Shown here one piece after another: positions 17,081 to 38,530 of a DNA stretch of 47,513 bases. Each line of letters starts with the position of its first letter. The first letter of the stretch is position 1. Position numbers and translations under genes: made by a program. The DNA lies in contig CAKZVB010000087.1 of assembly GCA_937922015.1 (NCBI GenBank), forward strand, positions 1 through 47,513, in the 5' to 3' direction. This DNA is from an uncultured Granulosicoccaceae bacterium (lineage in GTDB: Bacteria > Pseudomonadota > Gammaproteobacteria > Granulosicoccales > Granulosicoccaceae). The notes below the pieces were generated by a model. The model saw only the letters and a program-made list of their open reading frames with translations. It made no database searches and had not been told where the DNA came from.

Positions 17081-17121
17081 CAATTGCTCCTGATAAATAG
17101 TATTGTTTTCACGGATGTTAA

Positions 17122-21004: not shown

Positions 21005-21005
21005 T

Positions 21006-22886
21006 TTATCTTCGCCGCCTGTTGATTAGATGCCGCGCCGCGCCGGGTCGGTTCATGCCTTTGTTAAAACGTTCCTGCGGTTCATAAGGTTTGACTGCCG
21101 GTGCTTCAGGTGGTGACGCCGCTGGTTGGTCACGCGGTGGTTGCTGATAACTTCCGGTGCTGGATGCAGGCAGTGACTCTGGAGGTGAGACTGGTGACTG
21201 TTGAGAAACCGGTGTCGACACTTGTGTTGCAGGCGGCTGTGTTGTTTCACGATGCGCTGTTGCAGCAGGTGGCGGCGCGCCGGCTGCATTGGCAAGCGGT
21301 GCAGTTGCTTTAACGGTATGTCCCACTCGCGAAGGCTCAATTTGCATATCTGCATGTTGCAGTGGAAGAGGGCTAAGTAACTCGCTTGCCTGACCCGCCG
21401 GCACCCTTTCAGTGCCCTGCGCAGGACTGGCAGCGATCGATGACGACCTGCGTTCACCGATCTTACCCACCATGTCAACAGCGGTTTCCGGTATTGCTGC
21501 GCGCTCAGTGCTGCCGCCGTCACGCAAACTGGAAGCCGACGCATACTGCGGGCCCAGCTGCCAGTTACTTTTCTGTGCCGCGACCTGACAACACTCTATC
21601 AATGCAGTATTTTTCGCTACTCTGCGGTGTGCTTTCATATCGCCATCGCGATACGCATTGTGGATACGAAGTTCGATAGGATTCATGCCAACCGCTTCGG
21701 CGACTTTATCCATATGCGATTCGATCGCAAAGTCCACACCGGTAATACCAAACCCGCGCATGGCCGTCGCCGGTGTGCGGTTTGTGTACACACAATAAAC
21801 ATTCGCCGCCACATTGGGAATCGTATAGGGGCCGGGCAAATGCCCCACGCCTTTTTGAATCGCATAAGAAGACAACCGCGTGTAAGCGCCGCAATCGAAA
21901 TAGCCGGTAAATTCGCGTGCGATAATGCTTCCATCATTCATCACACCATCCCTGATTACCCAGCGCTCCGCGCCGCGCGGCGCGCCCACCTGCATTTCCT
22001 CTTCGCGATCCCAGTGAAACTTTACCGGCTTACCGGTTAACAGTGCGCCAAGTACTGCCATGGGCTCAGTGATGCTGTCGACTTTGCCGCCGAACCCGCC
22101 CCCTACCGTGCCACCGATAAAATGCAGCCGTGACGACGGGACATCAAGCAGTTTTGCCGTGGTGCCGAGGGAAAAGAACAACGCCTGTGTAGCCGTGTGA
22201 CAGACGATCCGTTCATTGGTCTCAGGGGCAGCAATAGCACCGCAGGTCTCCATCGGCGCCTGTTCTATCGGTGACATCTGATACTGCCCTTCGACTATTT
22301 TATCTGCCCGCTGCATCGCGCTGTGCACATCTCCGAAGCGAAGTTTCTGATGATCAAACCGTCCGTAGTCGAACAGGTTATTCGGATAGGTCTCATTGAC
22401 TACCGGCGCGTCGGGTTGAATCGCCTGTTCTACATCGAGTACGTGCGGCAACACTTCCCAGTCAACTTTTATCGCCGCCACCGCATCACGAGCCTGACGC
22501 TCGGTATCCGCAATTACCGCACACACCGGCTCACCTTTATAGGCAACCTTGGCGGACGATAACAACGGTTCGTCATCACGGCCAAAGCCGATCAGGCTGA
22601 GCAGGGTATTGAGATTGTTCGGAACATCAGACGGCATCACTATACGCCGAACCCCGGGCATGCTCTCTGCACCGCTAACATTTATGTTGCGAATACGCGC
22701 ATGATGGTGTGGCGATCTAACACAACGCATGTGCAACAAACCATCAAACAGATGGTCATCGTAAAAACGTGTAGTGCCACGCACGTGTCCGATAATATCC
22801 TGTCGAATAGTCGGCTTGCCTACTTCATTCAGGTCATCGCTGCGTTCGTCGGCAAAGAGGTCTTTGCGAAATTCAACGCGACTCAT
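21006..22886 (-). CDS. Molybdenum hydroxylase, molybdopterin-binding subunit, N-terminal half with a long disordered tail
   Basis: A 626-residue protein. Residues 1-445 correspond to the first half of xanthine-dehydrogenase-family large subunits: D-I-I-G-H-V-R-G-T-T-R-F, S-P-H-H-H-A-R-I, A-Y-K-G-E-P-V, G-G-G-F-G-G-K (262-268) and A-M-R-G-F-G (375-380). The CO dehydrogenase motif A-Y-R-C-S-F-R is absent, so the substrate is not CO. Residues about 447-626 form a low-complexity tail rich in Pro, Ala, Ser and Gln, ending in R-R-R-R, that replaces the usual short linker to the second half. An AGGAG lies 9 bases before the ATG, which overlaps the stop of the iron-sulfur subunit by one base. Confidence 0.87.
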   Translation of the reverse strand: MSRVEFRKDLFADERSDDLNEVGKPTIRQDIIGHVRGTTRFYDDHLFDGLLHMRCVRSPHHHARIRNINVSGAESMPGVRRIVMPSDVPNNLNTLLSLIGFGRDDEPLLSSAKVAYKGEPVCAVIADTERQARDAVAAIKVDWEVLPHVLDVEQAIQPDAPVVNETYPNNLFDYGRFDHQKLRFGDVHSAMQRADKIVEGQYQMSPIEQAPMETCGAIAAPETNERIVCHTATQALFFSLGTTAKLLDVPSSRLHFIGGTVGGGFGGKVDSITEPMAVLGALLTGKPVKFHWDREEEMQVGAPRGAERWVIRDGVMNDGSIIAREFTGYFDCGAYTRLSSYAIQKGVGHLPGPYTIPNVAANVYCVYTNRTPATAMRGFGITGVDFAIESHMDKVAEAVGMNPIELRIHNAYRDGDMKAHRRVAKNTALIECCQVAAQKSNWQLGPQYASASSLRDGGSTERAAIPETAVDMVGKIGERRSSSIAASPAQGTERVPAGQASELLSPLPLQHADMQIEPSRVGHTVKATAPLANAAGAPPPAATAHRETTQPPATQVSTPVSQQSPVSPPESLPASSTGSYQQPPRDQPAASPPEAPAVKPYEPQERFNKGMNRPGAARHLINRRRR

Positions 22887-23368
22887 CAGGTAGTTCTCCT
22901 TCGCATGTTTTCCGCAGCCACAACTATGGCATCTATAATGGGTTCATAGCCGGTGCAGCGACACAGGTTACCCGAGATCGCTTCGGCTATTTCGTCACGT
23001 GACGGGCTGGCATTTCTATCGAGCAGCGCTTTTGCGGCCATCAACATACCTGAACTGCAGAAGCCGCATTGCGCTGCAAATCCTTCGACAAACGCTTTTT
23101 GCAACGGATGCAAATCGGGACCTTCAGCCAAGCCGCCATTGGTATCGATACGCTGGCCTTCGACTCGCTCTGCAAGCACTAAACAGCTCAATTGCGGTTC
23201 ACCATTGATCAGCACTGTGCAAGCGCCGCATGTACCCTGACCACAGCCGAACTTTGGCGACAGATCACCGACCGTGCGACGCAGCTCATCAAGCAGATTG
23301 CCACCCTGTTCAACAAACACGGATGTATCCTGGCCGTTAAGAACAAAACTGATCGGTTTTTTCGCCAT
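22886..23368 (-). CDS. Molybdenum hydroxylase, [2Fe-2S] small subunit
   Basis: A 160-residue protein with two [2Fe-2S] clusters. The plant-type ferredoxin cluster has C-G-Q-G-T-C-G-A-C and a fourth Cys in L-S-C-L. The second, in the helical domain, has C-G-F-C and C-R-C-T-G-Y. Length and motifs are typical of CoxS/NdhS. It passes electrons from the Mo centre to the FAD subunit. It lies between the FAD subunit gene (6 bases upstream) and the N-terminal Mo subunit (1-base overlap). A GGAG lies 10 bases before the ATG. Confidence 0.95.
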   Translation of the reverse strand: MAKKPISFVLNGQDTSVFVEQGGNLLDELRRTVGDLSPKFGCGQGTCGACTVLINGEPQLSCLVLAERVEGQRIDTNGGLAEGPDLHPLQKAFVEGFAAQCGFCSSGMLMAAKALLDRNASPSRDEIAEAISGNLCRCTGYEPIIDAIVVAAENMRRRTT

Positions 23369-23374
23369 CGTCGA

Positions 23375-24172
23375 TTAACTCCTTTGCAACAGCAGTCGTT
23401 TTAAATAAACAGGTGCCACTTCATTGCGGTACCAACTGCTGGCGAGTGAATCATCTGCAGGAGCCATCCCTTCAGTGCAGGCAGCAAGGCATCTTTGAAT
23501 ACCCGATTCATCGAGTGACGCGCCTTGCAAAGCCTGCTCGGCGGCCATTGCCCTGCGCGGTTCAGGGGCCATGCCGCCGAATGCGATTCTTACATTACCG
23601 GTGCGTCCGTTTTCACGATTCAGCAGCACAGCGACGGTTAGCAATGAAACCCCTTTGGGTTTTACCCGGCTGACCTTCAGATACTGAAAAGCCCCCGTGG
23701 GTGGTTGCCTGACAGAGATTGAATGAACAATATCGCGGGCAGCGTCAGAGCGTTCCAGAAATTGCTCCAGCGATTGCTGTTGTCCGGAAGCCCAGTGAAG
23801 GTTCGCATCAAGCGCCAACAGTGCGGTGGCCATATCACCATAGGGACGAGGTGCAAACAGATTGCCGCCGATAGTCGCCATATTTCGTATTGCCGGACCA
23901 CCGACGGAGCGCGCCACTTCCCCTAGAAACTGCAACTGCGGGTGCTGCATAATTTCAGACATCGTGACGCCAGCACCAATCAGGATTTCATCGCCCTGAC
24001 TTTGTATTTGTTTCAGTGCCGGATCAGTGCTTTGCACCAATTGATTAAAACTCTGGTCGCCATAGTTCACCTTGCGCATTAACAAAGTACCGCCAGCAAT
24101 ATATTGTGCGGATCCCCCGAGCACCTCACTCGCCTGGCGCAACGTATCGAAAGATTTCACTTCAATACTCAT
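23375..24172 (-). CDS. Molybdenum hydroxylase, FAD-binding medium subunit
   Basis: A 265-residue protein of the CoxM/NdhF type. FAD-binding motifs are I-A-G-G-T-L-L (near 26-32) and T-I-G-G-N-L (near 99-104). The C-terminal CO-dehydrogenase flavoprotein domain includes R-I-A-F-G-G-M-A-P-E-P-R-R-A. It takes electrons from the iron-sulfur subunit and passes them to an unknown acceptor, perhaps through the SRPBCC proteins to the quinone pool, as proposed for CoxG. Its ATG overlaps the upstream SRPBCC stop by four bases. Confidence 0.93.
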   Translation of the reverse strand: MSIEVKSFDTLRQASEVLGGSAQYIAGGTLLMRKVNYGDQSFNQLVQSTDPALKQIQSQGDEILIGAGVTMSEIMQHPQLQFLGEVARSVGGPAIRNMATIGGNLFAPRPYGDMATALLALDANLHWASGQQQSLEQFLERSDAARDIVHSISVRQPPTGAFQYLKVSRVKPKGVSLLTVAVLLNRENGRTGNVRIAFGGMAPEPRRAMAAEQALQGASLDESGIQRCLAACTEGMAPADDSLASSWYRNEVAPVYLKRLLLQRS

Positions 24173-24615
24173 TGTGTGACACCTTCCAAATGCATTCGAA
24201 TTGCGTTAAATCCGGCATAATAAATATCGTTTGCAACCAGGTTATGCAGTTCTTCTTCCCTGTTATCGATGGTATTAAAAGACGCCTGCCACTCCCAGTA
24301 GGTAGAATCGGAATCGGTGACCGGGAATAGCCGAACGTGAGAGACGTAGTTCAATAAGGGAATCGGTGTATCGAGCAGACAGTAACTATAACTTTGCTCA
24401 GCATCAGACAGCGCCAGTAACTGCTCTCGCAATTCAGCGCCATCAGCGAGGCGAAATTTTCTGACGCAGCCGACCGTGTCAGAATCACGGGATCGCTCAA
24501 TCTGGCTACTGGCAACTGCAGGATGCCAGCGGTCATGGCCGTTAAAATCACGCAACACGTTCCACACGGCATCAATCGGCTGATCGATAATTGTGCTGCA
24601 TTTAACCCGGACCAT
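24169..24615 (-). CDS. SRPBCC-fold protein, second of a tandem pair
   Basis: A 148-residue START-like (SRPBCC) hydrophobic-pocket protein. The pattern D-A-V-W-N-V-L-R-D-F-N-G-H-D-R-W-H-P-A, then G-C-V-R-K-F and L-R-E-Q-L-L-A-L-S-D, shows the MxaD/polyketide-cyclase-like branch. It is a paralogue of the gene immediately upstream, sharing the D-F-N, W-H-P, G-C-V-R and L-R-E-Q-L-L positions. CoxG, a related-fold protein, anchors CO dehydrogenase to the membrane and binds a quinone; a similar role here is inferred from position. Confidence 0.85.
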   Translation of the reverse strand: MVRVKCSTIIDQPIDAVWNVLRDFNGHDRWHPAVASSQIERSRDSDTVGCVRKFRLADGAELREQLLALSDAEQSYSYCLLDTPIPLLNYVSHVRLFPVTDSDSTYWEWQASFNTIDNREEELHNLVANDIYYAGFNAIRMHLEGVTQ

Positions 24616-24617
24616 GC

Positions 24618-25055
24618 TTACTCCCCGAAGAAACGCTTTAGCGCGTCGAAGCCGCCCTGAAATACGTTGGACGCTATGCCATCCGTCAGGTCTGCTTCAA
24701 CATCGGCTGCGCATTGAAAGTCCGCCGACCATTCAATAAAACATCGATCACCATCGGTCACCGGTGTTAAACGCAAGGTCGCCACGTAGTCGCTTAGCGG
24801 CATCGGTGACTCAAGAATTGTATAGGTGTAGAACTTGTCGAAATCGCTTAGTCCCAACAGTTGCTCACGCAGGTTGTCGCCGTTTTGAAGATTGAAGTTA
24901 CGAACACATCCGATTTTGTCACCGGGTAGTGATTCCTCGATGCGACTGTCGCGAATTCTCGGGTGCCACACCGGCAGACTGTTAAAGTCTCTGACACGCT
25001 CCCAGACTTTATCGCTGGACGCATCGATCACCGAAGATACATAGACACTGGCCAT
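24618..25055 (-). CDS. SRPBCC-fold protein, first of a tandem pair
   Basis: A 145-residue SRPBCC protein with K-V-W-E-R-V-R-D-F-N-S-L-P-V-W-H-P and G-C-V-R-N-F, followed by L-R-E-Q-L-L-G-L-S-D. It is clearly related to the next gene, so the pair arose by duplication. The ATG shares one base with the stop of the giant SPFH gene and so is translationally coupled. Two copies suggest a heterodimer or two different ligands. The cargo is unknown. Confidence 0.85.
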   Translation of the reverse strand: MASVYVSSVIDASSDKVWERVRDFNSLPVWHPRIRDSRIEESLPGDKIGCVRNFNLQNGDNLREQLLGLSDFDKFYTYTILESPMPLSDYVATLRLTPVTDGDRCFIEWSADFQCAADVEADLTDGIASNVFQGGFDALKRFFGE

Positions 25056-28000
25056 CAGGACGACCCTTCTTTCTTTTCTTGCGACTTGTTGTCATTAGCC
25101 TTGCCATCACCTTTGGCTTTTGAGTCAGCTAACCGTTGCTGCTCCCACTGCATGCGGTTAAGCGATGCCGCGTCATTCAGCAGGCCGCCCGATCTGGATA
25201 TATTCGAACCATCAACACCGATATCACTTAACAGGCTGTCTACCATTGGCGCCTGCACACGATAGCGAAGGGCCGAATTTATAATTTCATCAGTAGGAGA
25301 ACCTCCTCCCCCTGCCGCGCCATCCGGGTTGTCACCATCCCACCCCAGGCCGTTGCTGCCGCTCCCGCCAAGCTGCATAATTTTGATGTCATTGATCTTT
25401 TCAAGCGGCTTGACAGAGGCTGACACAATACCTTCAACATGTTCGAGCATCTTACGCTTGAACAATGACGTACGGGCCTCATCAGTAAGTACGTTCTCTG
25501 CCTCGTTAATAAGCTTCTGTGCTTCTGCTTCAACTGCGCTGCGAATTTTCTCGGCCTCTGCCGCAATGCTCTTTTCCTGTGCCTGTTTTTCGGCAAGCAG
25601 TACATCGACAGATGAAATTCGCATCGCCTCTTGTGTAGCAGAGGTGGTTTTTACTTGTTCGGATGCCTCTATCGCTTTTGCTTTTGCGATATCCGCTTCG
25701 ACCGCAGCAGCACTCTCATCAAGCGACTTTTTATAAAGTGCGATGACTTTTTCCATCGATGCTTCTTCGACTACCTTATCGCGATCGATCTCAAGCTTGC
25801 GTCGCTTGGCCTGATGACTGATCCTGATGTCATCCAGACCATCGTCAGAGGTGATTCGAGCACGCTCTACTTCTTCCTGACTGGCAATTTGCGCCTCGTT
25901 CAGTGCTTGTACCCGCTCAATTTCAAGTTGTTCCAACGCACGCTTGCGCTGAACCCTGGTGGCTTCGAGTTCCTGTTCTGCCAGAATGCGCTGCGCATCG
26001 ACGGTTTTTTCCTTGGCTACTCTGGCTGCATCCACCGCTTCTTCAGCGGCGATCTGTGCAGTATCTATGGCTTTATTTCTTTCTATTTCTAAATCGCGAA
26101 CCGTTTTATCACGACCGATCTTTTCCCTACTGGTTTCAAGCTCTTTGGAGATACGCTCCTGATCCAGCAATCGGCGCGAACCGATTTCTGCAGTTTCGAT
26201 GGCTTCCTGTTTTTCAATTTCACGGGCACGCACTTCAGCATCGCGTGCGATCTCTGCAGAGCGCGTTGAAGACTCTTCAAGAATGCGCGCCATATTAATT
26301 TCTTTTTGTGCCTGCGCTGTTGCGACATCGACAGCACGGTTGCGCAATATTTCACGTTCACGCAAGTCCTGTTCAAACGCCACCCGATCTGCTGCATTTT
26401 TCTTTTCCTTGGCAATCCTTACCGCCTCGACTGCCTCTGCTTTTAACAGCTCAGCCTTCTCTATGGCCTCTGCTTTTTCCAGCTCCCTTTCCTGGGTGTT
26501 CTCATCTGACTCTATGCGCTGAACCAGCAATCTCGCTTCTTGTGCAATACGTTTGGCTTCGACTGCTTCACGCGCCGCTATGTCGGCTTCATCAATGTAC
26601 TGGTTGCGATTAATTTCAAGTTCACGCAGATCTTTTTCATAGGCAATTCGAATAGAACTGGTGGCTTTCTCCTGAGCTATCCTGCGTGCCTCTGTCGCTT
26701 CTCTGGCGGCACTTTCCGCTTCCTTTATCGCCGCCGCACGTTTTACATCACGTTCCTGCGTCGCTTCATTGGCCTCGAGTTTTTCAAGAGCAAGTTTCTT
26801 TTCATGCTCTATTCTTGCCTTCTCTGTTGCCTGGGTCGCTGCGATCTCCGCCGCATCAACAGCCTCATTGCGGGCGATTTCAAGATGCCGCACACGCTGT
26901 TCTTTTTGTATTTTCGAAGCGGTGGTTTCTTCCGATGCCTCGATCTGCGCCAGCTCAATGGAACGTTGTTGTTCTATCTGCAACGAACGCGTATCCAGTT
27001 CGGATGCAATTCGTTCTGCGGCAAGCTCTTGCTCTCTGGCAATTTTTGCAGCTTCTGTGGCTTTTTGACTGGCAATTTCCGCCTCATCAAGGGCGGTATT
27101 GCGTTCAATTTCAAGGCGGCGTGTTTCGCGGTCAGATGCAATGCGTTGAGCACTGACTACTTTTTCCTGTTCGATGCGCAACATCTCAGAGGCTTCACGC
27201 GATTCAATCTCCGCCGATTCAATTGCGAGGTTGCGTTGAATCTCACGTTCTTTGGTATTTCTTTGCTGCTCTATACGGGCTTCTGTTAAACGCTGTTCCT
27301 GATCGATCCTCGCTCTTTCAATCGTTTCACGTGCATCAATGTCTGCCGCATCAACTACACGCTGTCTTTCAATTTCCTTTGCCTGAGTGTCCTGCTCTTT
27401 GGCAATTCGAGCCTCGGCTATCGATTTCTCCTGTTCTATTTTGGCTTTTTCAACAATCTCTTTGGCGGCAATACTTGCTGCCTCAGTTTCTTTTTCAGAT
27501 CTTATTCGCGCCGCTGATAATTTCTGTTCCTGAGAAATACGCGCCGTTTCAATTTCTTCACGGGTTCGGATTTCAGCTTCGTCGATTGCTCTCTTGCGTT
27601 CAATCTCCTGCTGCGAGATCGAACGTTCCGATTCGATTCTGACTTCAGCAATTTGACGCTCGTTGGCAATCCGCGCGGTTTCTATTTCTTCGTTAGACTG
27701 TAGTGTTGCACGCTGTGCTTCTGCCGCTTGTTCTGATCTTTCACGCTCGAGCTCGGCCCTTTGCCGTGCGCGCCGAAATTCAATATCGCGTTCCTGTTCC
27801 AGTCTCGCCTCTTCACTGGCGCGCTCAATTTCAAGCGCCTGTTTTTCTGCCAGTAAGTTGCGCTCGCGAATTTTAAGGGCAGTTTCCTGCTCGATATCAT
27901 TGCGCAGTTTTCTGCGTCCTTCTATTGCCTCTATAACATTCGTTAAACCCTCTGCATCGAAGCGGTTGGAAGGATTAAAGAATTCGATTTCAGTTTGATC

Positions 28001-28555
28001 AATGTCGGTCACTGCAACGCTTTCAAGCTCAAGGCCGTTTTTATCAAGCCCATCTTGTGCAACTTCCAGCACCCGCGCCACATAGGTATTACGGCTTTCG
28101 TGCAACTGCTCCATGGTCATTTCAGAGGCAACCGTCCTCAGCGCAGAAATAAACTTACCTGACAGCAGGCGATGTATGCGTTCAGGCTCAAGCATACGTC
28201 GCCCCATAGTCGAGGCTGCCAGTGATACTGATTCGTTGGTTTGTCTGACGCGAACATAGAATTCGGCGTCGACGTCTACGCGCATTCTATCTTTGGTAAT
28301 GAGAGCGTCTTCCTTTTCACGCTTGATCGCCAAATCAAGCGTATTCATATTGACCGGAGTAATTTCATGAATTATCGGCCAGACAAATGCGCCTCCGTCA
28401 ATGACAACTTTTTCACCAAGAAACCCGGTACGAACAAAAGCTATTTCTTTGGTCGATCTTCTATACAGCCAGTTCATCACCCAATAGGCGATAAAAACGA
28501 CTATCACGGCAACGATCAACCAAAGTATTAGTTGACCTATTATTTGTCCACTCAT
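25055..28555 (-). CDS. Giant flotillin/YqiK-like SPFH protein with a hendecad-repeat coiled coil
   Basis: A 1166-residue membrane protein. Residues 6-30 are one transmembrane helix; 35-210 form an SPFH (band 7) domain with R-M-R-V-D-V-D-A-E-F-Y-V-R-V; about 225-980 are one continuous charged helix; then come a Gly-rich segment (about 1060-1085) and a polar tail. Flotillins of the YqiK type are around 550 residues, so the helix is more than twice the usual. From 316 to 931 it is a nearly gap-free series of 11-residue units grouped in 44-residue blocks (L-E-I-E-R-N-x-A-I-D starts a block). GAGGAG lies 10 bases before the ATG. It sits between the Tm-1-like pair and the SRPBCC pair. A membrane scaffold for the Mo hydroxylase or transporter is my inference. 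Confidence 0.9.
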   Translation of the reverse strand: MSGQIIGQLILWLIVAVIVVFIAYWVMNWLYRRSTKEIAFVRTGFLGEKVVIDGGAFVWPIIHEITPVNMNTLDLAIKREKEDALITKDRMRVDVDAEFYVRVRQTNESVSLAASTMGRRMLEPERIHRLLSGKFISALRTVASEMTMEQLHESRNTYVARVLEVAQDGLDKNGLELESVAVTDIDQTEIEFFNPSNRFDAEGLTNVIEAIEGRRKLRNDIEQETALKIRERNLLAEKQALEIERASEEARLEQERDIEFRRARQRAELERERSEQAAEAQRATLQSNEEIETARIANERQIAEVRIESERSISQQEIERKRAIDEAEIRTREEIETARISQEQKLSAARIRSEKETEAASIAAKEIVEKAKIEQEKSIAEARIAKEQDTQAKEIERQRVVDAADIDARETIERARIDQEQRLTEARIEQQRNTKEREIQRNLAIESAEIESREASEMLRIEQEKVVSAQRIASDRETRRLEIERNTALDEAEIASQKATEAAKIAREQELAAERIASELDTRSLQIEQQRSIELAQIEASEETTASKIQKEQRVRHLEIARNEAVDAAEIAATQATEKARIEHEKKLALEKLEANEATQERDVKRAAAIKEAESAAREATEARRIAQEKATSSIRIAYEKDLRELEINRNQYIDEADIAAREAVEAKRIAQEARLLVQRIESDENTQERELEKAEAIEKAELLKAEAVEAVRIAKEKKNAADRVAFEQDLREREILRNRAVDVATAQAQKEINMARILEESSTRSAEIARDAEVRAREIEKQEAIETAEIGSRRLLDQERISKELETSREKIGRDKTVRDLEIERNKAIDTAQIAAEEAVDAARVAKEKTVDAQRILAEQELEATRVQRKRALEQLEIERVQALNEAQIASQEEVERARITSDDGLDDIRISHQAKRRKLEIDRDKVVEEASMEKVIALYKKSLDESAAAVEADIAKAKAIEASEQVKTTSATQEAMRISSVDVLLAEKQAQEKSIAAEAEKIRSAVEAEAQKLINEAENVLTDEARTSLFKRKMLEHVEGIVSASVKPLEKINDIKIMQLGGSGSNGLGWDGDNPDGAAGGGGSPTDEIINSALRYRVQAPMVDSLLSDIGVDGSNISRSGGLLNDAASLNRMQWEQQRLADSKAKGDGKANDNKSQEKKEGSS
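25763..27610 (-). repeat. In-gene repeat: 56 hendecads in 44-residue (132-base) blocks
   Basis: Within the SPFH gene, residues 316-931 divide exactly into 56 units of 11 residues. Block starts fall at residues 316, 393, 437, 481, 525, 558, 602, 646, 690, 734, 778, 822, 877 and 921. Most are 44 apart; the exceptions (77, 33 and 55) are still multiples of 11. The repeat is kept at protein level; the DNA copies have diverged. Confidence 0.85.
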
Positions 28556-29403: not shown

Positions 29404-31578
29404 CTAAGCTCTTTTTGGATTGACTACTACATGTGAATTTAGTGAACGGAATGTTTTTACCAATAGATCTGCAAAGGCCGGATCATTGATGTTTTGTGGC
29501 ACCCGTATCAGTTGACGCTGACTTGTCTGGGTCACGGTCTCTTCAATGGCTTCGAACAATGCGGCATCGGCTGCCGGATCCCAGAACGCCTGGCCAGGCG
29601 AATCCAACATCGAGACACCACCTTCGTTTAAGTAGAACCGTACCGGGTTACTCATTTGATTGAGTTTTTCACCGATAAATTTACCCATCTGCCGACACTC
29701 GTCGACGGTAGTGCGCATTAACGTTATTTGTGGATTATGTTCGTAAAACAAACGGCCTTTATATTTCTCCGGCACAGTCTCCGGCGCATTAAAGTTGACC
29801 ATGTCCAATGCACCACAAGCTCCGATATATGGCTTGCCACTGCTGGCAAATACATCAAAGCGGGTTTGATCTGCCGCGAACACACCACCAGCTATCATGT
29901 CTGCAATTTCTGTTGTGGTCAGATCGAGCACTGCCGCCAGTTGCCCACCTGCCATTAGCTTTTCCATTGATCTGCCACCGGTACCGGTCGCATGAAAAAC
30001 CAGACAGTCATACTGCGCCGCTAATTGTTCCGACACATTGCTCACCACCGGTGTGGTAACACCGAACATCGTCAGTCCAAGCGCCGGTTTGTCTTCGTAT
30101 TCTTCAAGTGGTCTGGCACGAGCCGCCGCCATTGCCGCAACCGCCTCTGCCGCATTCTTTAGCACCACACGGGTAATGGAATTAATACCCTGAACATCGG
30201 CAACCGAGTGCATCATCAACATGTCTGACGACCCTACATACTGTTCCGTGTTACCCGAGGCAACCGTCGACACTATCAGTTTGGGCACACCAACCGCCAG
30301 CGACCTGAAACCGGGAGCAACTAACGCCGTGCCACCGGATCCGCCGGCACCTAGTACGCCTGCAACATCACGGCGACTCTGCACCCATCGCTCGAAAGCG
30401 AGTGTCATACCCGCCACCGCCGTACCTCTGTCGCTGGTAAATACCGCACTCGCTCCACGTGGATGCATTTCCGCAACGGCGTTAGGTGGCACTGCCGCAC
30501 CGGATGGTTTGCCTGAAGTCGACAGATCGACTAACTGAGTTCTGACACCGGCGGCTTTGATGATGTCGCGCATGTAGCGCAGTTCATCGCCTTTGGTATC
30601 GAGTGTTCCGCAGACATAAACAATCCCGTTGCGGCCTTCGTCAATTTTTGACATCGTGCTGGCGGCGGCAGATTGATCAGTAATGGATTCGGTGACCGTC
30701 CTGGCGCTGCGGGCGATAGTCGCGGCGGCAACCATCGGAGTCCAGCGATCGGGTATCTGCGGGTTTGATAAATAGATTTTTTTTACTGTACTGCCTGCCC
30801 GTGCAGCGCGCTGATTATCTGAAGTGCTCTGGCTGACCTGTGGTGTTTCATCATGTGCATGGCGACCGACACCAAGCAATGACTGCTGTAGCTGCGTGTC
30901 TGCTGCCAGTACACCCGAATCCATAATGCGATTGACTTTGCCGTTGATCATAATGGCAACCCGGTCCGCAACAGTACACGCCACGCCAATATTCTGTTCG
31001 ATCATCAGCACATCAATATCACCATCGCTGCCCAGCTGACTGAGCATCTGGGCCACTTGAGAAACAATGACCGGAGCTAGTCCTTCGGTCGGTTCATCCA
31101 TCAATAGCAGTTTAGGGTTCAGTAACAAGGCACGGCCAATAGCGAGCATTTGCTGCTCCCCACCGGACAGTTGACCACCGCCATTTGATTTGCGCTCTGC
31201 CAGCCGTGGAAACACCGAGTAGACGCGCTCAACAGACCATGGTCCTTTTGGTTTTGCCACCAGTTTTAGATGTTCATCAACCGTCAGTGACTTCCAGAGA
31301 CGCCTTCCCTGCGGCACATAACCAATCCCTAAACGCGCAATCTCTGCAGGCGTCTTACCGACCAGGGAATGTCCGTATAGTGAGATACTGCCCGAGGCTA
31401 CCGGCTCAAGACCCATAATGGCCTTGCATAGCGTGGTTTTACCCATACCGTTTCGACCCACCAGCGACAACACACCTGACCCCAGCTCAAGATCGACGCC
31501 CTGCAAAGCGTGTGACTGACCGTAATAGACGTTCAGTCCTCTCACCTGAAGCGCTGAACTTGCACTACTCATCGGCAT
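29404..31578 (-). CDS. Fusion: LivF-type ABC ATPase with Tm-1-like (UPF0261) ATP-binding domain
   Basis: A 724-residue fusion. Residues 8-237 are a complete LivF ATPase: Walker A G-R-N-G-M-G-K-T (41-48), signature L-S-G-G-E-Q-Q (137-143), Walker [12 protein letters not shown] (157-167). A polar linker of about 75 residues follows. Residues 316-724 are a full Tm-1-like domain starting [13 protein letters not shown], with [15 protein letters not shown] and [12 protein letters not shown]. The frame is continuous. The start may be the ATG at 31572, which has the better-spaced GGGA. It overlaps the LivG-like gene, and supplies the only LivF for the second transporter. Confidence 0.9.
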
Positions 31579-32356
31579 TTCCCAGATAGAGTGCCTGCAC
31601 TTCTACATCGTTTTCTATTTCCTCTGGTGTGCCGTTTTTGAAGATACGACCGTTATGCATCATGGTGACCGACTCTGCCACGCGTAATGCCACATCCATA
31701 TCGTGTTCGATGATAATAAAACCCATATGCGATGGTAATTCGGTGAGGATTGTTACCAGATCTGCGCGCTCTGTCGGAGACAAGCCGGCTGCCGGCTCAT
31801 CAAACAAAATAAACCTTGGAGCACCGGCCAGGGCCATTGCAATTTCAAGTTGCCGCTGCTGTCCGTAAGATAACTCTGCAACCGGGGTGTTGCGTACATC
31901 GTGCAAATTAACAATCTGCACCAGCTCATCCGTGCTTGACATCAAAGCGTCTTTAGCACGCGGTCGTATAAAAGAAAAACGCCCTGTTGATACACCGCGA
32001 CAGGCAATATACACATTGTCAAAAACACTAAGTGCCGGGAACAACTGAGAAATTTGGTAGGTTCGTCTAAGTCCGCGACGGATGCGCTCGTGCGAGGGAA
32101 ATTCTGATATGTCTTCACCAAAAAACTTGATCGATCCGGTAGTGGCTGGAAAGTCACCGGTAATGCAATTAAAGAGTGTGGTCTTGCCGGCACCGTTAGA
32201 CCCCAGCACGGCGCGCCGCTCACCGGGTCTGACAGACATTGAAATGTCTTCTAGAGCTGCCAGTGCACCGAACAGCTTTGATATATTTTTCAGTTCAAGC
32301 GCGAACTCGGTGCCGGTGGACGATAGTGCGCGATTTTCTGTCAGGGCCGCGTTCAC
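31565..32356 (-). CDS. HAAT ABC transporter ATP-binding protein, LivG type (second set)
   Basis: A 263-residue ATPase with a GTG start inside a GTGA overlap with the LivM-like gene. The first 18 residues are a polar extension. Walker A is G-S-N-G-A-G-K-T, the signature L-S-Y-G-Q-Q-R is the LivG type, Walker B is F-I-L-F-D-E-P-A-A-G-L-S-P, and the H-loop I-I-E-H-D-M-D is present. All catalytic motifs are intact, unlike the LivG of the first set. It overlaps the LivF/Tm-1 fusion by 8-14 bases. Confidence 0.93.
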   Translation of the reverse strand: MNAALTENRALSSTGTEFALELKNISKLFGALAALEDISMSVRPGERRAVLGSNGAGKTTLFNCITGDFPATTGSIKFFGEDISEFPSHERIRRGLRRTYQISQLFPALSVFDNVYIACRGVSTGRFSFIRPRAKDALMSSTDELVQIVNLHDVRNTPVAELSYGQQRQLEIAMALAGAPRFILFDEPAAGLSPTERADLVTILTELPSHMGFIIIEHDMDVALRVAESVTMMHNGRIFKNGTPEEIENDVEVQALYLGNADE

Positions 32357-33420
32357 AAGTCACGTCCATCGCTTTGTTCAAACGGATTTCGCTGCTGCCA
32401 GACCTTAAATTTTTTCCACAAACCCAGTATCCCGTCCGGGGAAAAGAACACGATCACTAAAAAACTCAGGCCGATCAGTAAACGAAAACGCTCGCCGCTT
32501 AAACTTAGTGCAATCAACGCATCGGTAGAAAACGTTTTTAGTAACACATAGATAAGCGCTCCAATAAACGCCCCGATCGGATGACCCAGCCCGCCAATTA
32601 CCGCAACCACCAACACATCAATAGCAGGGCCAATGCCCACGGTACCCGGTGATATCTGTGCGGACTGCCAGGTCAGCAGTATTCCACCAATGCCCGCAGG
32701 TATGGCCGCCAGCGTATAGGCCGCCACGCGGTGGGCCACGACGTTGTAGCCAAGCGCCGACATACGGCGTGAGTTGTCCCTGACACCCTGCAGCGCCAGA
32801 CCAAAAGGCGCTCTGGAGATATAGAGTATGAATAGGTACGAGGCGACAGCCCAGAACAGCGTCAGATAATAAAACGCTTTCGGTCCGCGCCAGTCGACAC
32901 CGAACAAAGACGGTGGATGAATAGAATTAAAACCCGAAAAGCCATTAAAGACCTCATAATTCTGCCGTGCAAAATAGAAGAATGCCGCTGCGATCGCCAG
33001 TGTAATCATGATGGTATAAATGCCGTCAGTCCTGACCGCAAGCCATCCGATTGCGCTTGCAAAAAGCGCCGTGACAATAAGCGCTACTGGTATAGCCGCA
33101 TACCATGGCCAGCCCTGACTAATTTCAGTGATCGCGCTGTCACCCAGAATAGCAACCAGATATCCGGCAAGCCCGGCAATGGTCATTTGTGCAAGACTAA
33201 CCATGCCACCATACCCGGCAAGAAACATCAGGCTAAGTGCAATCATGCCAAGGATAAAAGTCCAGCCAAAGATCTGAAACAGCATAAAGTCACTGGCAAA
33301 CAACGGCATGATTAATAGCAGAATACCCACTACCCAATATTGAGCAGGTATTTTTTCAAGCCAGTTCTGACGAGTACCATCAAGCCTGACAATCTTTGAC
33401 TCTGTTTCAACGATAGCCAT
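32353..33420 (-). CDS. HAAT ABC transporter permease, LivM type (second set)
   Basis: A 355-residue inner-membrane permease. After a soluble N-terminal stretch of about 28 residues there are about nine helices. Family motifs are G-Y-G-G-M-V-S-L-A-Q-M (family norm S-L-G-Q/H), the coupling loop G-V-R-D-N-S-R-R-M-S-A-L-G-Y-N, and G-G-L-G-H-P-I-G-A-F-I-G-A near the end. It starts 3 bases after the LivH-like stop and overlaps the LivG-like start by four bases. Confidence 0.92.
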   Translation of the reverse strand: MAIVETESKIVRLDGTRQNWLEKIPAQYWVVGILLLIMPLFASDFMLFQIFGWTFILGMIALSLMFLAGYGGMVSLAQMTIAGLAGYLVAILGDSAITEISQGWPWYAAIPVALIVTALFASAIGWLAVRTDGIYTIMITLAIAAAFFYFARQNYEVFNGFSGFNSIHPPSLFGVDWRGPKAFYYLTLFWAVASYLFILYISRAPFGLALQGVRDNSRRMSALGYNVVAHRVAAYTLAAIPAGIGGILLTWQSAQISPGTVGIGPAIDVLVVAVIGGLGHPIGAFIGALIYVLLKTFSTDALIALSLSGERFRLLIGLSFLVIVFFSPDGILGLWKKFKVWQQRNPFEQSDGRDL

Positions 33421-33423
33421 AGA

Positions 33424-34455
33424 TCAGGAAGACCCCATCAATCCGTGGGGCCGGAACGCCAACACCAGAACCATAATTAAAAAGGTAAGCACCACTGCAT
33501 AGGTCGGAAAATAAACAGACCCGAACTGCTCAGCTAACCCAACAATGAGTGCACCGATTGCCGCCCCGGAGATTGAACCCATACCGCCAACAATCACCAC
33601 CACCAGTGACGCGAGTAGAAAACGGATGTCCTCGCCCGGTGCCACCGATTGAAAGGTGCCACCTACTACGCCTGCGATACCTGCGAGACCGGCGCCGAAA
33701 ATAAACACACCAAGGAAGACCAGTTGTATTCTTACACCAGTGGCTGCCAGCATATCGCGATCATCAACCCCTGCCCTGATCAACATTCCTACACGGGTAC
33801 GATTCAACAACAACCACATTAGTACACCGACCACGACTGAGGCGACAAAAATGGCCAGTCTAACGACGGGATACTTCATGAAGATCAATTCACCGGATGA
33901 GCGTTTTACTCCGGTGGCAAAAAATGTTTCTACCGGACCGGACAACCACGATGGCGGACTGATGTTAAAAAAATCACCTCCGAAGGACCACAGCATCAGA
34001 TCGGCAAACACGATTGACAATCCAATGGTAACCAACGTTTGCCGCAGGTCCTGACCTTCCATACGCCGAAATACAAAAATCTGCATTAACGCGCCAACAA
34101 ACCCCACCACGATAAAGGCAACAGGAAACGCCAGCAACCAATACCCTGTCCATTCAGAGACAAAGTAGCCCACGTAACCGCCAAGCAAATACAGTGACCC
34201 GTGCGCCAGGTTCACATTGCGCATTAAACCGAATATCAGGGTAAAGCCACTTGCGACCAGAAAGTACAGCCCCCCCAGAGTAATGCCGTTAAAAAGTGCA
34301 CTGAGAAATATTTTTTTCTTGCCGATGAGATCGATAAGCCAGGCCGGCCATAGTGCAAATACCATCCACAATAAAACGATGGCACCAAAGCCGATGATGG
34401 CAGCCCACCACGGATGCTTAGAGGCATACTCACGCACTATTGCAACCCCGGTCAT
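33424..34455 (-). CDS. HAAT ABC transporter permease, LivH type, with an extra N-terminal helix (second set)
   Basis: A 343-residue inner-membrane permease. The LivH core begins near residue 50 (L-F-N-G-I-T-L-G-G-L-Y-F-L-V-A-S-G-F-T-L-I-F-G), with V-N-L-A-H-G-S the diagnostic motif. The coupling loop is R-A-G-V-D-D-R-D-M-L-A-A-T-G-V. About 45 residues are added in front, including one more hydrophobic helix, making it longer than the usual 290-310. The ATG at 34455 is preferred to the TTG just before it. It lies 167 bases after the AraC gene, so a separate promoter is possible. Confidence 0.92.
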   Translation of the reverse strand: MTGVAIVREYASKHPWWAAIIGFGAIVLLWMVFALWPAWLIDLIGKKKIFLSALFNGITLGGLYFLVASGFTLIFGLMRNVNLAHGSLYLLGGYVGYFVSEWTGYWLLAFPVAFIVVGFVGALMQIFVFRRMEGQDLRQTLVTIGLSIVFADLMLWSFGGDFFNISPPSWLSGPVETFFATGVKRSSGELIFMKYPVVRLAIFVASVVVGVLMWLLLNRTRVGMLIRAGVDDRDMLAATGVRIQLVFLGVFIFGAGLAGIAGVVGGTFQSVAPGEDIRFLLASLVVVIVGGMGSISGAAIGALIVGLAEQFGSVYFPTYAVVLTFLIMVLVLAFRPHGLMGSS

Positions 34456-34622
34456 CAATCAACTGACAATGTTGAGGTATACACATCATTGGGTTAACGA
34501 TTCTCCCTCATACTTTTCGATCCACCGAACTGTGCTGCCGAGAATGCACTCAGCAAATAATCAGAGATGAAACGATAAACGTATTAGAAGAGCTTGCCTG
34601 TACCTGAAAGTATTTTAAATTC

Positions 34623-35468
34623 TCATTGAATCGGAATATGACCCGCCGGTCTGTCTGCAACCCTGCGGTATTCAGAGGGTGCGATTCCAACATTGGATGA
34701 GAAAAATCGGGTGAAACTTGCCTGAGAGGAGTAACCAAGATCGTAGGCGATACTGGTCACGGTTTTTTCTGTGTTGACCAGTTCATCTATCGCGCGCTCT
34801 GATCTGAGCGTGTTTAAATAGACATTGGGTGTTACGCCGAGTTGTAATTTAAATAGTTTAAAAAAGTGTGGCCGTGACAACCCGACAGTGCGCGCAACAG
34901 CTTCCATTTCTACTTCAGCGGAGACAAACTGTTGCATTATCCGCAGGGATCGACGAATACGATGGTCACTGAAATTCGAGCATTTGTTTTGCAACAAACC
35001 AGGCGTTCTTACGCTTTGCCAGGTCTGTTCGTAGCAAAGTTTAGACAATGAAAACAGCAGAGTATCAATGTTCTCAATGTTGTGAACGTTGAGTAACAGC
35101 GAGGTAAATCGGCGAACCAGATCATTTATACCCTGCGTTCGCACTACCTGGGAACTACCGAATCGCAGCGTGAATTCAGCGGATTGGCTGTTTTCGAGAA
35201 ACCATATTGGCTTGATGTACAACACCAGAACTACGCTTGTTTGCGACGGTTTCACATTGAAACTATGGGGTTCCAGTGGACTGACAGCAGTCGCGTTTTG
35301 ATAGTCAACGCTGTAAGTCTTGTCGTCTATTACAACATCACTGAAATTTCCCTCAATATGGAATATGAGGTGACCCTCACGATGAGCGTGCGTTATAAGT
35401 GATTTATCTAATCGATATAATGCGGCTCTGCCGAACGCGCCATGACAAACTGATATTGCCGTGCTCAT
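34623..35468 (-). CDS. AraC-family transcriptional regulator
   Basis: A 281-residue regulator. The N-terminal half has a cupin-like sensor (H-A-H-R-E-G-H-L-I-F-H, then P-H-S-F-N). The C-terminal hundred residues hold two helix-turn-helix motifs: M-E-A-V-A-R-T-V-G-L-S-R-P-H-F-F-K-L-F and T-S-I-A-Y-D-L-G-Y-S-S-Q-A-S-F-T-R-F-F, the second matching the AraC signature. The start at 35468 is fixed by GGAGGATGT just before the ATG. It lies in the head of the 24-kb cluster, between the binding-protein and permease genes, so it is the best candidate for the cluster's activator. Its inducer is probably the transported compound. Confidence 0.9.
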   Translation of the reverse strand: MSTAISVCHGAFGRAALYRLDKSLITHAHREGHLIFHIEGNFSDVVIDDKTYSVDYQNATAVSPLEPHSFNVKPSQTSVVLVLYIKPIWFLENSQSAEFTLRFGSSQVVRTQGINDLVRRFTSLLLNVHNIENIDTLLFSLSKLCYEQTWQSVRTPGLLQNKCSNFSDHRIRRSLRIMQQFVSAEVEMEAVARTVGLSRPHFFKLFKLQLGVTPNVYLNTLRSERAIDELVNTEKTVTSIAYDLGYSSQASFTRFFSSNVGIAPSEYRRVADRPAGHIPIQ

Positions 35469-35709
35469 ACATCCTCCATTGCCGAGCAACAATCGCTTGC
35501 TGCTATATACCCAACGATGCTTCGTCACCTCTGAGTTTTCTCCAGACCCGGATCAGGGAAAAAAACTCTTCATCTGCAAGAATGCCCGCTACAGGGTCGC
35601 AGAGGAATACAAAATTCGAAAAAAAAAGACTATAAGATACGCCCAATCAGGAAATTAGATTTTCAGTCGTATCACAAGGTCCCCATAAAATTATTCTAAC
35701 AGGCATCTT

Positions 35710-36828
35710 TCAGCCAAACTCCGACATGCCCGACATTGACCGGGAGCGCAAATCGACCGCTTCAAGCATGCCCACAAGGGATTCTACAGAGGGCACCAGA
35801 GAAGATCTATTGGAGGCAACCTCCCGGGCGGCAGCTCTGATATCACTTGATTTGACACCGAGTTCGGCAAAAGTACCCGGGAGCGGTAACTCCTGAAATA
35901 GCGATAACAACCAATTATTCAATTTTTCGCCCTTTGGCACACCAAGCGCTGAGCGAACCTCAGCCAGACGCGCCAGTGTCCAGGTGGATTCCATTATGCG
36001 TGCCTCAATCACAATCAGCAAACGCATAAGAGCGCCTTCGTCTATTGGATTCACTGCAGAGCGAAGCAGTATTTCACAAAGCTCATGGGCGACGCCTTTG
36101 TCCTTTTGCATAGCCAGCGTGGCATTCAGACTTGCAGCCATCAATTCACGCCGCATGCGCAGCGTATCTTCAGTGACTATTGCGGGCAGGTTTCGAACAA
36201 TTCGTTTGAAGCCATCAATAGCAATGCCATCAGCCGGCGGATTATATCCATTTGAGAAATGAGCGCTCAAACACCGCGCCATACTATTTGCGGCTGCAAC
36301 CGCCGTACGCTCAATAGATTCACCCAGAATTAAAGTAGGGTCGATCACTACAGTGTCCGGTTGGATACCCGCACCTAAACGGGATCCACGCACGGCGCTA
36401 TGCCGCGGCATTGATATAGTGGGTATGCCATCGACACCGGGCACGGCAATAAAGTCCGGTACTATTGATGATCCATCGATTTGCTGTTCCGATAGCGCAC
36501 TGAGATGTCTGCAACACGCATCGGCAACAGACAGGGCCAAAGAGCTTCCAAAGGCAATAACCACGTCTGCGTGAACTTCTCGCACAACTTGCTGAAGCTC
36601 GGTTACTGCTGCCTGCGCATCCTTGTTCTGCGCAATATCGTATGAGCTTGACTTACACCAGAAAGGCAGCCCGGAGTTTACGCGCTCTGCAAATTCGTTA
36701 GATACTGCATGCTTTTCCGACACAAGTAACGGTCGTCCGAATTTATTTAGTTCCAACTCCGAGGACAATGCGACTTCGAGCACGCCATCTGCGAAATGAA
36801 CTCTCGATAAATAGGTAATAAGGGTCAT
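35710..36828 (-). CDS. Degenerate iron-containing alcohol dehydrogenase / maleylacetate reductase family protein
   Basis: A 372-residue protein with the two-domain layout of the iron-ADH family: a Rossmann-like half (1-165) and an all-helical half (170-372). V-I-D-P-T-L-I-L-G (161-169) is the family's hinge motif. The catalytic details are eroded. The GGGS of the nucleotide site reads F-G-S-S (93-96). The usual metal ligands Asp and His of G-M-D-A-L-T-H align with Asn181 and Arg185, and the I-P-H-G histidine aligns with Asp263/Glu264; only His248 (G-V-A-H-E-L) remains. It may be a pseudoenzyme or use other residues. It starts about 90 bases after the binding-protein gene, past a hairpin. Confidence 0.75.
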   Translation of the reverse strand: MTLITYLSRVHFADGVLEVALSSELELNKFGRPLLVSEKHAVSNEFAERVNSGLPFWCKSSSYDIAQNKDAQAAVTELQQVVREVHADVVIAFGSSLALSVADACCRHLSALSEQQIDGSSIVPDFIAVPGVDGIPTISMPRHSAVRGSRLGAGIQPDTVVIDPTLILGESIERTAVAAANSMARCLSAHFSNGYNPPADGIAIDGFKRIVRNLPAIVTEDTLRMRRELMAASLNATLAMQKDKGVAHELCEILLRSAVNPIDEGALMRLLIVIEARIMESTWTLARLAEVRSALGVPKGEKLNNWLLSLFQELPLPGTFAELGVKSSDIRAAAREVASNRSSLVPSVESLVGMLEAVDLRSRSMSGMSEFG

Positions 36829-36921: not shown

Positions 36922-38178
36922 TTAATAGCTTGTTTTGCACTCCGGTGCGTCTCTACTGGGCAGACCGATTTTAGCGAAAGCCGCGGCATCAATCCCCAAA
37001 GTCTGATTAACACCTTCTTTCATCGAAACGAGCTTTGTTGCAAGTCCACCGCCTTCAACTTCTACAACTTCGGACACAAAGTTGGTGCCTATTGCCTGAC
37101 GATTTTCATCCAGTGTAATTTTGCCGTTAGGTGCGTCCAGCTCCAGTGATGAGAGACAGGATCGCAGCCCTGCATGACCATCAGACAAATCACCATCTAT
37201 CTTATCCATGCATTGTGCAACCGCGTGGCCGGCGTTGTAATAACCGGTCGCGAGCAGCGATGGACTGGGAAATCTATCTTCGGGGGCGAAGGTATCCTGG
37301 TACGACTTTACATAGGCCTGCCACTTCGGATCATCCCAGGTGTCAGCCTGTGGTCCGGCAGATGGTGTGCCGATCAATGCGTTCTTTGCATCACCTTTAG
37401 AATTCAATACGGTGCCGTCAACCATAATAGTACCGCCGATTAAGTTGGCGTCACCACCAGCCTGCTGGTACTGGTTCAGGAAGTTAACAGCGTCTCCACC
37501 ACCCAGCCCCAGGTAAATCGCATCGACATCATCAGGCAGAGCGGCGATTATAGATCCGAAATCCTTGGTACCCAGAGGCACCCACAGTCTCTCGGTCACT
37601 TCACCACCGGCCGCACAAAACTCGGTTACCAGTCCAAATACCTGTGTATAAACAAACGAGTAATCCTCACCTACTGTGGCAATTGAGCGATAACCTTTTT
37701 CGTTGTAGATGTAGTCACCCAGCCCTGCAGACCATTGAGCTCCATCCATGTTGAACCTGAAAAAATTCTCTGATGGTTCAACATAGGTAGTTTCCTGAGC
37801 CCCTGATATGCCGTTAATGAAGGTAACACCGGGTTGAGTTTTTGAGTAATCCCGAATCGCGATACCCTCGGAACCTGACAGCGGGCCGATCACAATATCA
37901 ACACCGTCCTGCTCAACTATTTTGCGAGCTGCGCGTACTGCGCTGTCCGGGCTGGCATCGGTGGGGCCGATGACAAGCTCTACATCCCGGCCTCCCATCT
38001 GATTTTTTATTTCGGCAAGGGCAGTTTTCAGGCCTCTTACACCATCCTCACCGAGCGCCGTATAAGTGCCCTCCAGCGTAGCCAGTACACCCACTTTAAG
38101 TGGATCTGCCGCCATCGACGTGGTGCTAAATCCCATACCAGCCGCAAGCATTGACGCGGCGATTAGACTTTTTTTCAT
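36922..38178 (-). CDS. Branched-chain-amino-acid-type ABC transporter, periplasmic substrate-binding protein (second set)
   Basis: A 418-residue exported binding protein. The signal peptide is M-K-K-S-L-I-A-A-S-M-L with cleavage after S-M-A-A; the mature start is D-P-L-K-V-G-V-L-A-T-L-E-G. Conserved segments include A-A-R-K-I-V-E-Q-D-G-V-D-I-V-I-G-P-L-S-G-S and a G-L-G-G-G-D motif. The ATG at 38178 has GGAGA 7 bases before it; the longer frame would hide the signal peptide. It is the first gene of the 24-kb cluster, followed by a terminator-like hairpin. Cys residues in C-M-D, S-C-L and E-C-K suggest disulfides. The ligand is unknown. Confidence 0.9.
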   Translation of the reverse strand: MKKSLIAASMLAAGMGFSTTSMAADPLKVGVLATLEGTYTALGEDGVRGLKTALAEIKNQMGGRDVELVIGPTDASPDSAVRAARKIVEQDGVDIVIGPLSGSEGIAIRDYSKTQPGVTFINGISGAQETTYVEPSENFFRFNMDGAQWSAGLGDYIYNEKGYRSIATVGEDYSFVYTQVFGLVTEFCAAGGEVTERLWVPLGTKDFGSIIAALPDDVDAIYLGLGGGDAVNFLNQYQQAGGDANLIGGTIMVDGTVLNSKGDAKNALIGTPSAGPQADTWDDPKWQAYVKSYQDTFAPEDRFPSPSLLATGYYNAGHAVAQCMDKIDGDLSDGHAGLRSCLSSLELDAPNGKITLDENRQAIGTNFVSEVVEVEGGGLATKLVSMKEGVNQTLGIDAAAFAKIGLPSRDAPECKTSY

Positions 38179-38530
38179 GTAGATTCTCCAGTTGCTCTCA
38201 TCGGGCGAACAATGCCCCACATCAGATTGCAAAATTGGATGCCCTACCACCATCCCCCGGAGTTACCAGCCATATCCGTAGGTCTTTTTAATCGCCTGTA
38301 GGCCGCACGGATCATCCACGAAGTGCGGATTTTGTCCGAATGCCAGCAAGCCCCCTGCAAGACCCTGAGTCATAGTGAGTGGCGGGAACAGTGGAAATGT
38401 TGTGTCTCACATTAGCTTACTTATCAGCTTTTTTTAAATTTGTACAAAAAAGAAAAGACTGTCAGTGAAGTTCGCCAACAAATAATTTAGATACTGTTCA
38501 TTCGCTAAAAGAAAAGACGGGGGTTTCCTT
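38179..38530. promoter_or_regulatory. Divergent control region at the head of the cluster
   Basis: 352 bases separate the livK-like gene from the rightward NTF2-like gene and must hold promoters for both. A hairpin CCGCAC/GTGCGG (38303-38328, 14-base loop) is present. The right half is AT-rich, and AAAAGAAAAGAC occurs near 38447 and again near 38506. I cannot name a binding site for the AraC protein. Confidence 0.45.

Follow-up and report, generated by a model that had tools for sequence, protein, structure and literature searches.

A LivF-type importer ATPase fused to a UPF0261/Tm-1-like domain within a conserved gene cluster

The second transporter of the window (the whole stretch of 47,513 nucleotides analyzed here) possesses a LivF-type ABC ATPase that is joined in one frame to a complete UPF0261/Tm-1-like domain, and this fusion architecture is real and conserved. 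The fusion, its conservation, the intact ATPase motifs, the intact UPF0261 residues, and the conserved neighbors were all observed directly. The explanation we favor, tentatively and with slightly less than even confidence, is that a tethered UPF0261 kinase, together with a TIM-barrel partner, phosphorylates and traps a hydroxylated substrate of the importer, and that an xRWx motif in the tether docks on an assembly partner; trapping on entry, docking through the motif, and the class of the substrate are what we infer. As far as our searches show, this is a new combination of known parts and the architecture is undescribed: no description of a LivF-UPF0261 fusion was found in the open-licence PMC literature, and the text of PMC5028733, which reported co-evolution of the UPF0261 and TIM-barrel families, contains no "ABC".

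The fusion is encoded by a single open reading frame (29404..31578, minus strand) of 724 amino acids, which has an ATG start and no internal stop. From the N- to the C-terminus, it consists of the LivF-type ATPase domain (residues 1-235; 30874..31578, minus strand), an 81-residue linker (residues 236-316; 30631..30873, minus strand), and the UPF0261/Tm-1-like domain, which is made up of an N-terminal part (PF06792, residues 320-487; 30118..30621, minus strand; 191.5 bits, cut-off 27) and a C-terminal part with the Tm-1 fold (UPF0261_C, PF23189, residues 497-712; 29443..30090, minus strand; 286 bits, cut-off 27). The Pfam ABC_tran match (residues 26-164, 93.9 bits) scores far above its cut-off. 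According to NCBIfam, the N-terminal part is closest to UrtE/LivF models, and the C-terminal part lies above the cut-off of two PRK02399 models. The Walker A, Q-loop, signature, Walker B, and H-loop patterns are all present in the window's LivF domain, and each of them was found in 80-82 of 82 distinct fused proteins; the misses are two sequences cut at contig ends and L182, which lacks the signature pattern only. The first 14 bases of the fusion are shared with the upstream LivG gene. Among the scanned ORFs of the window, ABC_tran was above cut-off in LivG and LivF of the first transporter (8.2-12.8 kb), which thus has its own LivF, in LivG of the second transporter, in the fusion, and in a UvrA-like protein; therefore, the second transporter has no LivF besides the fusion. 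The sequence-only reading had described a continuous frame with a complete LivF ATPase and a complete Tm-1-like domain, in a transporter without any other LivF gene, and these claims are borne out.

When the same two-domain architecture was sought in other genomes, it was present in 82 distinct proteins with conserved neighbors, which rules out a sequencing error or a chance frame. Homologues do not consistently form two separate proteins at this junction: one separate-gene case was found versus 82 distinct fusions. An internal start yielding free UPF0261 was also rejected: 72 of the 82 fused genes have an ATG or GTG within 30 codons before the domain, and a Shine-Dalgarno-like 5-mer before such a start is absent in all 82, so there is no sign of separate UPF0261 translation.

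Scanning genome contigs yielded 62 loci. Across all loci gathered, a UPF0261 domain occurs in 178 ORFs, of which 97 are fused; after the removal of identical domains, 145 distinct UPF0261 ORFs remained, including 82 fused and 63 unfused ones. PF06792 matches were found in 44 of 397 sampled Pseudomonadota genomes (43 above cut-off); besides the window's genome, 14 of these contain a frame of at least 730 aa, and all 14 frames are fusions on reading. In a sample of 387 genomes, whose class (that of G278) was taken as Alphaproteobacteria judging by the named loci that accompany it, 55 have a UPF0261 match, 21 of them with the fusion. A UPF0261 match is present in 38 of 95 relatives of the window's genome, and four, the window's own included, carry the fusion. 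Named carriers include Roseibium, Roseobacter, Ruegeria, Aurantimonas, and Nitratireductor. The fusion is also located on Yoonia and Variovorax plasmids, where both records label the product "ABC transporter permease", so it is easily overlooked.

Kinase chemistry in the UPF0261 family is taken from published work and partly by inference. Acetovanillone, a lignin-derived phenol, is bound in the UPF0261 structure 9MPY, which was released in September 2025 and which, according to its title, represents Saro_1862 of Novosphingobium aromaticivorans. The accessible part of PMC13101465 describes MarK as the single-component kinase that starts acetovanillone catabolism in N. aromaticivorans; Saro_1862 is probably MarK, judging from the organism, the ligand, and the shared author group. 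A total of 44 residues are conserved in fused and unfused UPF0261 members, and at least 43 of them are present in each of 79 fused rows. Tomato Tm-1 keeps 41 and 9MPY keeps 35, and 33 are common to the two proteins. Because these conserved residues are kept by the fused domain and mostly by 9MPY, the fused domain is taken as a competent kinase, and the best reading is that it would act on a hydroxylated compound delivered by the importer. The identity between 9MPY and the fused domain is only 33% over the phmmer alignment, and the substrate residues need not match; the fusion is not classed here as a MarK orthologue. The isolated UPF0261 domain was modeled with a pLDDT of 90; remote fold relatives of its N-terminal domain (cutinase, DJ-1, and epimerase-like proteins) reached Z of about 9-10 over part of the model and were rejected as too weak. 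A second, distant UPF0261 gene is present in the window's own genome (L149:8124-9356, from contig 41) without an adjacent TIM-barrel gene; it scores closer to 9MPY than to Tm-1 and represents the common form in the window's genus.

The fusion is embedded in a long gene cluster on the minus strand. Upstream of it are the genes encoding a LivG-type ATPase (31565..32356, Pfam), a LivM-type permease (32353..33420; BPD_transp_2, UrtC-like), a LivH-type permease (33424..34458; BPD_transp_2, UrtB-like), an AraC-family regulator (34623..35528; HTH_18), an iron-type alcohol dehydrogenase family protein (35710..36828), and a periplasmic substrate-binding protein (36922..38253; Peripla_BP_6). Downstream, the TIM-barrel partner of the PEP_hydrolase family (PF09370; 28569..29399; 427 bits, PDB relative 2P10) follows four bases after the fusion stop on the same strand, just as the sequence-only reading stated, and it is the only match of its family in its own genome. 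It is followed by a flotillin-like SPFH protein of 1166 aa (25055..28555; Band_7 59 bits, cut-off 23.6; Flot 114.5 bits, cut-off 27) and two SRPBCC proteins with Polyketide_cyc2 matches (SRPBCC 1, 24618..25055; SRPBCC 2, 24169..24615). The variable periphery consists of molybdenum hydroxylase genes (19979..24172; FAD, 2Fe-2S, and a two-gene Mo subunit) and genes for a MoxR-type ATPase, a CoxE-like VWA protein, an amidohydrolase_2, and a lactonase-like MBL protein (16232..19969), which have the same order in Yoonia. The Mo-binding subunit (19979-22886, minus strand) is encoded by two adjacent genes of 626 and 341 aa in different frames, and this division is genuine rather than a frameshift, because Yoonia shows the same split. 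The window's flotillin possesses a very long charged helical repeat region; flotillin ORFs elsewhere (match above 200 bits) range from 191 to 1476 aa, some of them cut or over-extended. At 39206-40810 (plus strand), a 534-aa frame joins an SMP-30/gluconolactonase domain to an isochorismatase domain, and the Yoonia cluster ends with an isochorismatase gene of similar size.

Neighbors were counted in 69 distinct intact fused loci that are flanked by at least 4.5 kb on both sides, leaving out the degenerate loci L082, L083, and L091. The substrate-binding protein, LivH, LivM, LivG, flotillin-like, and SRPBCC genes lie on the same strand in 69/69, the TIM-barrel gene is present in 67/69, and AraC and CoxM-like genes each occur in 52/69; the alcohol dehydrogenase is a neighbor in 40 of 54 loci, a count that takes in L083. 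Where at least 900 bp of downstream sequence are available (63 intact fused loci, the same three degenerate loci left out), the TIM-barrel gene follows directly in 61. Another 16 distinct fused loci have less than 900 bp downstream and were kept out of this count; 14 of these do contain a visible TIM-barrel gene; L060 has 175 bp only, and L163 has the gene upstream. In two fused carriers (L133, L136), the TIM-barrel gene is located elsewhere in the genome. By comparison, 20 unfused loci contain the TIM-barrel gene in 15, an SRPBCC gene in five, a transporter in three, and flotillin in none. Flotillin in 69/69 fused versus 0/20 unfused loci (Fisher p 2.5e-20, relatedness ignored) indicates that the fusion and flotillin go together.

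Two cluster types were recognized: the first carries molybdenum hydroxylase and AraC (the window, Roseobacters, and Bradyrhizobium-like genomes), and the second is without both, with SRPBCC 2 joined to a quinone-oxidoreductase-like half (labeled by reading its sequence). Naming the substrate from the molybdenum hydroxylase, lactonase-like, and isochorismatase-like neighbors was rejected, as they are suggestive only and absent in the second cluster type; a homarine-type substrate was dropped after a literature search gave no link. No aromatic-ring cleavage gene was recognized beside the window's operon. In Halomonas and Franzmannia (L078, L079), an unfused UPF0261 gene is flanked by a pair of TIM-barrel genes, one SRPBCC gene, and two Liv-type transporters that are both complete, which is an unfused counterpart of the UPF0261/TIM-barrel/Liv/SRPBCC association. 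Upstream of two fused clusters (L069:2059-3813 and L126:1-2352), a partner-like TIM-barrel domain is followed by a Fis-type helix-turn-helix (recognized by eye in the translation), a probable reuse of the enzyme fold as a ligand sensor.

The linker had been read as polar. A linker is indeed present in all fusions (65 to 214 residues, median 83, n = 82), but it is more than polar, since an xRWx motif is conserved in 82/82 distinct fused linkers (two copies in one of them). The motif is mostly TRWS, stands in an [SA]NPxxPxRW setting in 64/82, and is represented in the window by DRWT (residues 277-280; 30739..30750, minus strand). By composition (680 R and 97 W among 7150 linker residues, shared ancestry ignored), about 0.1 RW would be expected per linker. 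In the whole-fusion model, most of the linker has a pLDDT below 50 (residues 238-280, 286-288, and 291-309); the pTM is 0.53, and the model leaves the relative position of the domains undefined and supports no contact between them. Because the conserved spot sits in a disordered tether, it suggests a docking site in trans.

A FastTree tree of UPF0261 domains was built from 141 of the 145 rows, leaving out rows shorter than 300 residues. The fused and unfused labels change five times on this tree, compared with a shuffled mean of 46.4, and at least three changes are forced by starred branches. One of the five is spurious: at L080, first considered a split gene, the assembly has a stretch of N at the break, yet the locus was counted as unfused in the tree and among the 63 unfused ORFs. 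With 79 fused rows and at most five label changes, the tree argues for a fusion of near-single origin that has long been retained. The window's domain groups among alphaproteobacterial sequences, so the fusion likely entered the window's lineage by lateral transfer. L162 and L185 represent one genome and one genuine case of adjacent separate genes, in which LivF (255 aa) and UPF0261 (406 aa) overlap at ATGA in the order LivH-LivM-SBP-LivG-LivF-UPF-TIM-SRPBCC and the unfused pair (L162) is without a linker of the fused type; this pair plausibly represents the pre-fusion state. Conversely, the UPF0261 genes of L011, L073, and L147 lack any ATPase and begin with a piece of the fused linker, which we read as a later release; in L073, the domain and the TIM-barrel gene persist with part of the old linker. 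The fusion might also do no more than secure co-expression and equal dosage of one pathway's proteins, without channelling or trapping; its formation from adjacent genes of one pathway, as the overlapping pair suggests, and at least one later release from the ATPase (L073/L011) speak for this. We consider it quite improbable, given the near-single origin and long retention, the conservation of a motif within a linker that is otherwise free to vary, and the strict coupling to flotillin.

One lineage retains the fusion with a degenerate domain. In two close Nioella genomes and an alphaproteobacterial bin that is 52-53% identical to them (L082:521-2605, L083:8740-10809, and L091:7644-9701), the fused domain keeps only 14-17 of the 44 conserved residues and has lost 23 of the 33 common to Tm-1 and 9MPY. 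No TIM-barrel family match was found in the whole genomes of the three carriers (assemblies of unstated completeness) and no CoxM/S genes were seen at the loci, which retain the ATPase, the RW motif, flotillin, and SRPBCC 1. Between the Nioella pair, dN/dS is 0.33 for the degenerate domain and 0.02 for the ATPase, a sign of relaxed but constrained evolution, and the domain is a candidate pseudoenzyme on the importer. The joint loss of the TIM-barrel gene and the residues fits a kinase/TIM-barrel unit. As this lineage keeps the fused domain without most of the conserved residues, a non-catalytic, structural role also exists, which shows that catalysis is not the sole reason for keeping the fusion.

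Such a role could be the main one, with the fused domain acting as an adaptor that clusters importers on flotillin via the tether motif and with enzyme activity secondary. The flotillin association (69/69 versus 0/20), the invariant xRWx motif, and the degenerate lineage, which lost the TIM-barrel gene and kept fusion, flotillin, and SRPBCC under the unequal dN/dS values above, are all consistent with this. We nevertheless regard it as unlikely, because the family residues are near-completely conserved elsewhere and because the domain and TIM-barrel gene in L073 indicate that the enzyme pair is useful without the ATPase. C-terminal domains are known to regulate importer ATPases such as ModC and MetN, and the UPF0261 domain, C-terminal as well, might be a sensor through which the imported compound or its product throttles transport (trans-inhibition). 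The ligand in 9MPY, the degenerate lineage, and the TIM-barrel domains fused to Fis-type regulators (L069, L126), from which the module appears able to sense, point in this direction. Against it, at least 43 of the 44 family residues are kept outside the degenerate lineage, 33 of the 44 being common to Tm-1 and 9MPY, and nearly every fused gene has the TIM-barrel gene beside it, a partner that a pure sensor would not need; a sensory function is therefore also judged to have a low probability.

In the favored explanation of a tethered kinase, LivF of a HAAT/Liv-type importer would carry a UPF0261 small-molecule kinase that is catalytically complete and attached through a flexible tether of 81 residues. 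The importer would take up a hydroxylated compound, probably a phenolic or similar aromatic; the kinase and the TIM-barrel partner encoded by the adjacent gene would phosphorylate it with ATP at the cytoplasmic mouth, so that it could not diffuse back and would be committed to the pathway encoded alongside. The TIM-barrel partner might, as a guess, be a lyase or perform a phosphate-eliminating step after the kinase, and the xRWx motif would dock on an assembly partner, for which the flotillin scaffold and the TIM-barrel protein are the likeliest candidates. The sequence-only reading proposed that the enzyme is physically tied to the importer, which holds through its covalent linkage to the LivF ATPase, and that it may act on the entering substrate; the latter is strengthened by acetovanillone in 9MPY and by the MarK kinase, as far as its accessible description goes.

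A further proposal extends this to a caged import-and-phosphorylate compartment, amounting to group translocation by an ABC importer, and we give it little credence. In this scheme, the flotillin-like protein would form a membrane dome around Liv-type importers, and the xRWx tether would hold the importer ATPase and kinase inside. The SRPBCC proteins would carry the phosphorylated, otherwise hydrophobic product to the oxidising enzymes, and the substrate would thus be pumped, phosphorylated, and processed within one bacterial membrane microcompartment. Animal flotillins form truncated-cone cages, according to the accessible text of PMC11260169. Through the constant flotillin neighbor, a bacterial SPFH protein gains a defined cargo. 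Both UPF0261 and its TIM-barrel partner occur across bacteria, fungi, and plants and are the source of a plant virus-resistance gene. With UPF0261 covalently tied to an importer whose single binding protein can reveal the ligand, the native job of the family becomes directly testable.

The N-terminal domain of tomato Tm-1 (PDB 3WRV-3WRY) belongs to the same fold and family as the fused domain (Z 46-47; at most 3.4 A over at least 384 residues, 45-46% identity). Tm-1 joins UPF0261 to the TIM barrel, whereas here UPF0261 is joined to the importer ATPase and a gene of its own encodes the TIM barrel; the virus-resistance analogy has no bearing on the bacterial role. 9MPY is more distant (Z 33) and, unlike the fusion, is a free single-component protein with neither ATPase nor linker. 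The second transporter, assigned as a putative Liv-type importer from its gene content, shares with HAAT/Liv- and Urt-type importers the binding protein, two BPD_transp_2 permeases, LivG, and LivF with intact motifs, but its LivF has a C-terminal extension of 490 residues. The two-component dikinases HpeHI, AcvAB, and PpsAB start aromatic catabolism by ATP-dependent phosphorylation, as stated in the accessible part of PMC12167813. They are comparable only in how they work, as theirs is an ATP-grasp and swivel-histidine machinery; no ATP-grasp or swivel (PEP-utilising) Pfam family was found in the fusion or its adjacent partner at E up to 0.001, and an HpeHI-type identity was dropped since the domains differ. 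For the unrelated HpeHI kinase, Dexter 2022 (PMC9618137, in its accessible part) proposed phosphorylation as a means of retaining a diffusible aromatic inside the cell; with a kinase tied to the importer, such retention would occur at the entry point. The UPF0261 domain is covalently bound to the ATPase of its transporter. In peptidase-containing ABC exporters (C39-ABC), a transporter-tied enzyme acts on the passenger, and in PTS group translocation phosphorylation takes place on entry; both are working analogies only, with domains unrelated to the fusion. If the fused kinase does act on its passenger, phosphorylation on entry would be achieved by an ABC importer, in parallel to PTS group translocation.
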